This document shows, piece by piece, positions 54,326 through 57,450 of a stretch of 64,000 bases of DNA. How positions within the stretch are numbered: position 1 is the stretch's first letter; each line of letters begins with the position of its first letter. The notes beneath the pieces are model-generated. The model saw only the letters and a program-made list of their open reading frames with translations, did no database searches and had not been told where the DNA came from. The position numbers were made by a program, and so were the translations under genes. Origin of the DNA: a virus; IMG/VR virus record IMGVR_UViG_3300021478_000794, positions 25,391 to 89,390 of that record; one strand, 5' to 3'.

Positions 54326-54478
54326 TTAAGTATCCGGATCGACCGGAACCGAAAGACCTTTACCGGCGGCGTAAAACTCGGCGAGCGCCTTCCGCTGGCC
54401 GAGGGTAAGATCTTCGAAAGCGATCCGGCCCTCTAACCATTCCACGAACCAATTTACTTTAACGGCGGTTTCCGTCAT
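54326..54478 (-). CDS. Small protein downstream of the tRNA
   Basis: 50 aa (MTETAVKVNWFVEWLEGRIA...). Compact helical protein (FEDLTLGQRKALAEFYAAGK). Open frame with native codon choice and tight spacing to the 54032 gene. It begins 22 bases after the tRNA; no clear Shine-Dalgarno is seen, so processing of a joint tRNA-mRNA transcript is possible. Confidence 0.65.
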   Translation of the reverse strand: MTETAVKVNWFVEWLEGRIAFEDLTLGQRKALAEFYAAGKGLSVPVDPDT

Positions 54479-54499
54479 AAAGCGGGGAAAAGGAGTAAA

Positions 54500-54572
54500 T
54501 TGCGGGGGGAGGATTTGAACCTCCGATCTCCTGGTTATGAGCCAGACGACTTAACCACTGGTCCACCCCGCG
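54500..54572 (-). tRNA. Initiator-type tRNA-fMet (anticodon CAU)
   Basis: 73 nt cloverleaf: acceptor CGCGGGG with CCCCGCA, D stem GACC, anticodon stem TCTGG/CCAGG with loop CTCATAA, T arm GGAGG-TTCAAAT-CCTCC. Initiator hallmarks: unpaired C1/A72, A11:U24 in the D stem, discriminator A73, and acceptor ends nearly identical to bacterial tRNA-fMet (CGCGGGGTGGA, CCCCGCAA). Only two of the usual three G:C pairs precede the loop (T29:A41 replaces one). CCA is not encoded and must be added. It probably feeds phage translation initiation. Confidence 0.9.
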
Positions 54573-54590
54573 ATTCGAAAACTTATCGAA

Positions 54591-54803
54591 CTATCGGATC
54601 TCGGTATAGCTCGAAAATCGGCAATTCTGGAAGGTCGCCTTAAAAATTTGTTGAGCGGTCCCGGCGTCCGGCGCTTCGACGACCGTGTACTGGGTACTCC
54701 CGTTTCCCGGGAGGAAGTAGGCGATCTTAAATTTTCGCGGAGTCCCGTAAACGACGGTAAGCGAAACGATCGCGATCGTAAGGAATAGCATTAGTTTTTT
54801 CAT
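54591..54803 (-). CDS. Small secreted protein
   Basis: 70 aa from the ATG at 54803. Sec-type signal peptide (MKKLMLFLTIAIVSLTVVYG) then a ~50-residue mature part (KIAYFLPGNGSTQYTVVEAP then DAGTAQQIFKATFQNCRF). The upstream frame in the ORF is not native-looking, so this start is preferred. Exported or periplasmic, function unknown. Confidence 0.75.
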   Translation of the reverse strand: MKKLMLFLTIAIVSLTVVYGTPRKFKIAYFLPGNGSTQYTVVEAPDAGTAQQIFKATFQNCRFSSYTEIR

Positions 54804-54813
54804 AAAAGGTCTT

Positions 54814-55071
54814 TCAGTAATAGCGAACGGCTCGGCCCCGCTCGTCGTAGTAGATCTTGGGTTTCTGGGTAGCGGCCCGGCGGGCCGGGAGGGAGGTCGA
54901 GTAATAGCGGCTCCCCCCGAGTAACTTCCTACAAATCCACTCGGGCGTATAACGGGCGAGATCGGGCCGCGCTTCCATCTCCGAGCGGCACATCGTCCAA
55001 GGTTCATGTTCCGCTCTCTTCCGTTTCGGCTCGTCCCAGGCCTCTCCCGTAAAAAGTAATTGACGGGACAC
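54814..55071 (-). CDS. Unknown small protein
   Basis: 85 aa from a GTG at 55071 with AAAGGGGAAG upstream. Charged, with two cysteines (TMCRSEM, EWICRKLL) and a tyrosine/arginine-rich C-terminus (KIYYDERGRAVRYY). No family recognised. Confidence 0.7.
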   Translation of the reverse strand: MSRQLLFTGEAWDEPKRKRAEHEPWTMCRSEMEARPDLARYTPEWICRKLLGGSRYYSTSLPARRAATQKPKIYYDERGRAVRYY

Positions 55072-55930: not shown

Positions 55931-55949
55931 CCTCCCTAGAAAAGAAAAA

Positions 55950-55969
55950 CCCCGCCGGTTAGGGCGGGG
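55950..55969 (-). terminator. Intrinsic terminator
   Basis: CCCCGCC / GGCGGGG hairpin followed on the minus strand by TTTTT, downstream of the YRVGNN-repeat gene. Confidence 0.8.
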
Positions 55970-55995
55970 TCTTCCGGGGAGGAGATTTTAGTTAG

Positions 55996-57048: not shown

Positions 57049-57450
57049 TTACGCGTCCCAAGCCGAGACCTCGTGCATATTGGAGACGTCGATTTGCGGG
57101 ACCAGGGCGACGAGCGAGCCCGCCTCCGTTAAAGCGGCGGCGATCGCCCGGGCCTTCTTCGGCGCTACCTTCTCTAGAACGGTTCCGTCCTTCGATTCCG
57201 CTAAACGTTTCGCGTCGGCGAGGCCGAAGCCCGGGATTAGGCTCCGGAGCGTCTTAACGACCGGGATAAGGGAACCGGGCGTTAAACCCCGGATCTTAAT
57301 ATCGACGACCGGCCCTTCCGCCGCCCGGATCTCCCGGAGGAGATCGAGAAACTTCTCGACTTCTCCGGCGTCGGTAACCGTAAGGGCCCGGGCGAAGAAG
57401 CTCGCTTCGAGCTTCTCTAATTCTTCGACCGTTAAACCGTTAAAATTCAT
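57049..57450 (-). CDS. Ribosomal L7/L12 C-terminal-domain-like protein with MHEVSAWD tail
   Basis: 133 aa. Residues ~47-115 match the bL12 CTD: VDIKIRGL, SLIPVVKTLRSL, GFGLADAKRLAES and KKARAIAAALTEAGSLVALV align with FDVILKAA, VAVIKAVR, GLGLKEAKDLVES and DAEALKKALEEAGAEVEV of bacterial L7/L12. The L12 CTD recruits translation factors, so a phage copy could compete for them or supplement the stalk. The dimerising N-domain and flexible hinge are replaced by a short helical region. The chain ends DVSNMHEVSAWDA, the shared tail. Starts directly after the membrane gene. Confidence 0.8.
   Translation of the reverse strand: MNFNGLTVEELEKLEASFFARALTVTDAGEVEKFLDLLREIRAAEGPVVDIKIRGLTPGSLIPVVKTLRSLIPGFGLADAKRLAESKDGTVLEKVAPKKARAIAAALTEAGSLVALVPQIDVSNMHEVSAWDA

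Follow-up and report, generated by a model that had tools for sequence, protein, structure and literature searches.

Introduction

Phage-encoded initiator tRNAs are a known and under-annotated kind of gene. They have been annotated in phage T5 ('initiator tRNA fMet'), Caulobacter phage CcrBL10 and Mycobacterium phage ScoobyDoobyDoo (tRNA-fMet), and a cyanophage initiator tRNA was noted in a review (PMC4810235). Each of two initiator patterns matched at least 119 stretches of IMG/VR. The statement in an earlier note on this DNA that phage tRNAs are normally elongators did not stand up to these cases. The determinants of formylation are the 1:72 mismatch, G2:C71, C3:G70 and A11:U24 (PMC7949028). 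In the ribosomal P site, A1339 grips G30:C40, while G1338 contacts 29:41 via the 2'-OH of residue 41; P-site discrimination is linked most closely to G30:C40, and a 30:40 swap brought translation down about 20-fold in vivo (PMC11497404). Because every start codon is read by the initiator tRNA, a phage with its own copy can affect translation as a whole in the cell that it infects. In this work, a stretch of 64,000 nucleotides (the window), corresponding to positions 25391-89390 of an 89,390-base IMG/VR record, was analyzed, and its tRNA gene adds one more member to this kind.

Results

The tRNA gene in the window

ARAGORN reported a tRNA-Met(cat) at 54499-54573, and the Rfam tRNA family RF00005 matched full length over 54572-54500 with 60.9 bits (E=1e-10), which was the sole RNA-family match within the window. 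The sense tRNA was CGCGGGG UG GACC AGUGGUUA AGUC G UCUGG CUCAUAA CCAGG AGAUC GGAGG UUCAAAU CCUCC CCCCGCA A, and CCA was not encoded by the gene. The C1/A72 mismatch, the A11:U24 pair, discriminator A73 and the CAU anticodon, which the earlier note had pointed out, were all found in the sequence on the minus strand, and its count of two G:C pairs out of the usual three in the anticodon stem was borne out (Table 1). All stems were intact except the D stem. The folding energy of the tRNA gave z = -2.9 against shuffles, and the predicted single-strand fold favoured another D hairpin. The anticodon loop was ordinary, and position 29:41 was the only departure from the textbook anticodon-arm grip. 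The remainder of the record, which may be a fragment, yielded no further tRNA.

Table 1. Coordinates of the tRNA gene, its structural elements and the neighbouring features in the window
Feature	Position	Strand	Details	Basis
Initiator-type tRNA (CAU) gene, 73 nt	54500..54572	minus	sense 54572 -> 54500	ARAGORN, Rfam, R1 vs R2 models
Acceptor stem	54501..54572	minus	C1 (54572) x A72 (54501) mismatch, then G2:C71, C3:G70; discriminator A73 = 54500	
D-stem pairs	54549..54562	minus	A11 (54562):U24 (54549), initiator-type; C13 (54560) x A22 (54551) mismatch	sequence, Rfam and R1 alignments
Anticodon arm UCUGG-CUCAUAA-CCAGG	54530..54546	minus	U29 (54544):A41 (54532), G30:C40, G31:C39; CAU 54539-54537	
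T arm GGAGG-UUCAAAU-CCUCC	54508..54524	minus		sequence, Rfam alignment
Upstream ORF, 138 aa, no family	54591..55007	minus	stop 18 nt before tRNA	
Downstream ORF, 50 aa, no family	54326..54478	minus	start 21 nt after tRNA	
Terminator-like hairpin	55944..55975	minus	13 pairs, then T-rich	consensus scan

Phage context of the tRNA gene

The record carried genes for a Gp23-type major capsid protein, a T4-type portal, prohead protease S77 and a tail sheath, together with family A DNA polymerase, DnaB, UvsX/RecA-like proteins, a 5-hmdU kinase and dCMP deaminase, and this predicted gene set marks a contractile-tailed phage. The 5-hmdU DNA kinase family (PF18723) suggests that the phage DNA is hypermodified. 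Phage ORFs surrounded the tRNA gene, and the end of the record was about 9.4 kb away. No match was returned by a sigma-70 promoter scan around the tRNA gene, and the terminator-like hairpin of Table 1 is a possible upstream boundary of the tRNA transcription unit. A gene for a 133-aa protein with the C-terminal domain of the ribosomal stalk protein bL12 (PF00542, E=2.7e-10) was located about 2.5 kb upstream (57049-57450), likewise on the minus strand but with terminator-like hairpins between it and the tRNA. Phage bL12 is already known (PMC6375957), and its co-occurrence with an initiator tRNA in one phage is possibly notable.

Relatives of the phage were sought among viral contigs: the major head protein retrieved only proteins about 29% identical, and the tRNA-adjacent ORF and the DNA polymerase retrieved none. 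A comparison of all phage ORFs with the contigs that carry initiators revealed no close relatives either, which indicated that initiator tRNAs occur in unrelated phages.

Many prophage contigs end in a host tRNA-fMet, and the gene could in principle be host sequence, brought in by bacterial contamination or left as an attachment-site copy of the host tRNA-fMet after integration. This origin is extremely improbable given the location of the gene among phage ORFs and its distance from the record end; no integrase family was present among the first 25 families listed, and a strict pattern for the window tRNA hit 0 of the 84,980 species genomes scanned. Contigs of the former sort were seen in the viral data, where eight (L172, L179, L181, L187, L189, L193, L224 and L258) and similar ones started or ended within roughly 200 nt of a canonical alphaproteobacterial tRNA-fMet, a pattern that integration of prophages at this gene would produce.

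Scoring with initiator and elongator models

Two covariance models were used: R1, made of 19 cellular initiators taken from genomes, and R2, made of 15 cellular non-initiator CAU tRNAs in which elongator Met and Ile2 were mixed and unlabelled. The window tRNA scored 80.7 bits with R1 and 64.2 bits with R2, and the next best R1 match elsewhere in the window reached 13.7 bits. The scoring check proposed in the earlier note thus came out on the initiator side, with R1 ahead by 16.5 bits. The pairwise identity was 78-88% to 25 cellular initiators and 57-76% to 15 elongators, and the best cellular match was a Patescibacteria initiator (87.7%). Every formylation determinant given in PMC7949028 was present, in company with CAU and G30:C40, and the elongator features, a paired 1:72 and C11:G24, were replaced by C1xA72 and A11:U24. 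The textbook stem of three G:C pairs at 29-31:39-41 was interrupted by the U:A pair at 29:41, but initiator membership does not depend on this stem, because alphaproteobacterial chromosomal initiators lack it too.

Based on sequence features and covariance models, and in line with the identity proposed earlier, the window gene was confirmed as a phage-encoded initiator-type tRNA. A reading as elongator tRNA-Met or tRNA-Ile2 whose end mismatch arose by coincidence is highly improbable: the R2 score is still considerable and some viral CAU tRNAs do pair C1xA72 with the elongator C11:G24, but the R1 lead, the identity ranges and the joint presence of A11:U24, C1xA72, G2:C71, C3:G70 and G30:C40/G31:C39 all argue for an initiator. 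Hybrids of this sort, with the C1xA72 end and C11:G24, were observed in Bordetella phage PHB04 and at some viral loci. The suspicion that C1xA72 might be a sequencing error was rejected as implausible, since independent determinants co-occur with it and the same type of 1:72 mismatch recurs in many phage contigs. When the viral loci were scored with both models, initiator-type tRNAs usually scored higher in R1 and elongator-type tRNAs in R2 by inspection; a tie was found at one locus (L321), and R1 was ahead at another (L299).

Anticodon stem of viral and cellular tRNAs

To describe the anticodon stem across viruses, IMG/VR was searched with a pattern that fixed the initiator acceptor and loop and left the anticodon stem free. 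Matches less than 1 kb from a stretch end, many of which are host genes at prophage borders, were removed and identical sequences were collapsed. Loci already fetched with the other initiator pattern entered the sample (n=57) only where they stood in the printed table, so that U:A at 29:41 is undercounted if anything. Among the matches listed, 30:40 was G:C in 56 of the 57 viral initiator-type tRNAs. Position 31:39 was G:C in 37/57, and 29:41 was G:C in 18/57, A:U in 33/57 and U:A in 6/57. Differently, in 74 viral elongator-type CAU tRNAs 30:40 was G:C in 50 and 29:41 was G:C or C:G in 65. The difference between initiator and elongator types was significant at both positions by Fisher's test (30:40, p=2.7e-6; 29:41, p=2.7e-11), with p values that are optimistic owing to shared ancestry.

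A similar picture was obtained from reference records, in which 19 of 28 phages carried a CAU tRNA that combined A11:U24 with a 1:72 that was weak or mismatched. G30:C40 was kept in all 19, and 17 were without G29:C41; the two exceptions, from an Aeromonas phage and an Acinetobacter phage, looked host-like. Most of these records had been picked up because they resemble the window tRNA, a route biased towards an intact GGCTCATAACC core, and the stem-unbiased sample of 57 is therefore the main evidence. Taken from these alignments, phage initiators as a class appear to keep 30:40 and usually to give up 29:41. No description of this signature was found in the searchable literature, outside which most subscription papers lie.

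Among the reference phages, phi92, Nernie, PegLeg, Pectobacterium phage CBB and S-CRM01 carried an initiator-type tRNA annotated only as tRNA-Met, and Elanor and Pan5 carried one where no tRNA was annotated. The initiator hallmarks were also found in crAss-like phage cr60_1, annotated as plain tRNA-Met or not at all. Under the plain label tRNA-Met, such phage initiators may be misclassified in studies of codon supply by phage tRNAs.

For the cellular baseline, the initiators listed from 200 Pseudomonadota genomes had G:C at 29:41, or A:U in the alphaproteobacterial form, and never U29:A41, and all of them had G30:C40. In a phylum of Patescibacteria-like bacteria with small genomes (96 genomes), 29:41 was G:C in 17, A:U in 17 and U:A in 6, and 30:40 was G:C in 40/40. 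The idea that a stem with two G:C pairs is peculiar to this phage was consequently not upheld: most phage initiators are without G29:C41, and so are alphaproteobacterial and many Patescibacteria initiators.

A scan of the 84,980 species genomes for the acceptor and stem of the window tRNA gave 8 matches, 7 of which were in Patescibacteria-like or unclassified small-genome MAGs and 1 in a Mu-like prophage of Amylibacter. The position of the latter, behind Mu-like gp27, terminase, portal, F, protease and gpT genes, shows it to be phage-borne. This initiator-type tRNA (contig C2 near 911,960) lay just past the gpT head gene, with a GTGCAAT T loop and an encoded CCA. Two Patescibacteria initiators (L037 and L039) also had the T loop GTGCAAT and a D loop without the usual GG, as did the Amylibacter prophage tRNA; in these two it looks from the sequence as if the D-loop/T-loop contact had been changed on both sides.

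Start codons and leaders

Starts were assigned by a simple rule in 85 ORFs of 100 aa or more, and ATG, GTG and TTG starts numbered 65, 10 and 10 (76, 12 and 12%). An ATG within 40 nt before the start was found in 22 of the 85 leaders (26%), compared with 21% of random 40-mers. The extra-AUG leaders and the GTG and TTG starts had been taken as unusual features of this phage, and these counts did not bear that out. By the same simple rule, a Shine-Dalgarno match of at least 4 bases was present in only 30 of the 85 ORFs, which might hint at the initiation habits of the host.

These counts bear on start-site remodelling, in which the initiator would be specialised for phage leaders or unusual start codons. 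Changes at 30:40 alter start-codon discrimination in E. coli (PMC11497404), and start choice could therefore in principle respond to changes in the stem; the window tRNA, however, has G30:C40 unchanged, upstream ATGs occur at close to the chance rate, and the use of ATG, GTG and TTG is near the bacterial norm. As the start codons are ordinary, remodelling is not supported, and we regard it as very unlikely.

Discussion

Our work suggested that the window gene probably provides a working initiator tRNA, which would be matured, charged and formylated by the host, be gripped through G30:C40 and keep fMet-tRNA plentiful during infection. The gene would be transcribed leftward with the small phage genes as part of a polycistronic RNA, and the tRNA would be excised by host RNase P and 3' processing and receive its CCA from the host enzyme. 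Charging with methionine would follow from the CAU anticodon and A73. Formylation by host Fmt is predicted from the unpaired 1:72 together with G2:C71, C3:G70 and A11:U24. IF2 would then deliver the tRNA to the 30S P site, where A1339 of 16S rRNA would grip the retained G30:C40; the pair at 29:41 can be U:A because the G1338 contact is largely through the backbone. In this way, the tRNA would top up or replace host tRNA-fMet, and the likely benefit would be a plentiful supply of fMet-tRNA when the host initiator is limiting, lost or hit by tRNA-targeting toxins. The distribution of G30:C40, in 56/57 initiator-type and 50/74 elongator-type viral tRNAs, is what selection for initiation predicts.

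Two observations count against a functional tRNA. The D stem contains C13xA22 and may fold into the alternative hairpin, and no close relative of the window phage was found among viral contigs. Together with the altered 29:41, they could also be explained by a decaying or neutral passenger, namely a former host initiator gene that was kept by chance and is drifting, and conservation in relatives was not demonstrated by the head-protein and DNA polymerase searches. But the D stem is the only stem that is not intact, no formylation determinant has been lost, and phage initiators retain G30:C40 while other pairs change, which neutral drift does not predict. Moreover, the GACC..AAGTC D arm of the window tRNA is common to two viral contigs (L066 and L081) from phages without detectable relation to the window phage. 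A passenger is thus an unlikely explanation.

A specific reason for such a working initiator, within this explanation and not separate from it, could be anti-defence: the phage tRNA would survive or replace a host tRNA-fMet hit by VapC or AtaT, and the altered stem would aid escape. VapC toxins cleave the anticodon stem-loop of tRNA-fMet and AtaT acetylates Met-tRNA-fMet (PMC7180214). Phage tRNAs targeted by nucleases often carry anticodon-loop changes, thought to block the nucleases (PMC10264068); 29:41 is systematically changed in phage initiators, and phi92 and Nernie are also altered at loop positions 32 and 38. The window tRNA, however, has the ordinary CUCAUAA loop and so lacks the loop change associated with VapC resistance (PMC10264068), recognition of 29:41 by VapC was not documented in the literature found, and alphaproteobacterial hosts normally have A29:U41. 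Phages were also reported, as a rule, to avoid carrying a tRNA-fMet gene where VapC-LT2 is active (PMC10264068). We therefore advance anti-defence only tentatively.

A broader proposal is that the loss of G29:C41 with retention of G30:C40 marks a widespread under-annotated class, extending over Mycobacterium, Streptomyces, E. coli, Synechococcus and Bacteroidales phages, in which the change is adaptive through toxin escape or tuning of ribosome acceptance. The window phage, whose only detected tRNA is an initiator, would be a pure case. By the present alignments such an adaptive origin is conceivable, though we would not presume it. Phages offer a natural mutational scan of the three G:C pairs of the initiator, in which 30:40 appears constrained and 29:41 dispensable or even disfavoured, and this fits the published A-minor contacts of A1339 and G1338.

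Comparison with described initiator tRNAs

The chromosomal tRNA-fMet of alphaproteobacteria resembles the window tRNA in C1xA72, A11:U24, CAU and two of the three G:C pairs, but it is a host gene with A29:U41, where the window tRNA has U29:A41, and with a regular D arm. Patescibacteria initiators (e.g. L034 and L039) share the short D loop, and some of them also have U29:A41; like the window gene, L034 and L039 do not encode CCA. They are cellular, however, with gatA-like genes in the vicinity of L037 and L039. Among annotated phage initiators, T5 tRNAfM (AY543070), from a lytic phage, likewise has A11:U24 and keeps G30:C40 without G29:C41, but differs in U1xU72, A29:U41 and U31:G39, and it lies in a large tRNA cluster, whereas the window phage has a single tRNA found. 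The tRNA-fMet of CcrBL10 (MH588544; that of Ccr10 is similar) has a longer D arm, C1xU72 and an encoded CCA, and lies near a second tRNA-Met; the phage belongs to another group and, at 220 kb, is much larger. Nevertheless, its tRNA has the same UCUGG/CCAGG stem with U29:A41, as has that of Ccr10, and the 3' part of the CcrBL10 tRNA is 94% identical to that of the window tRNA.
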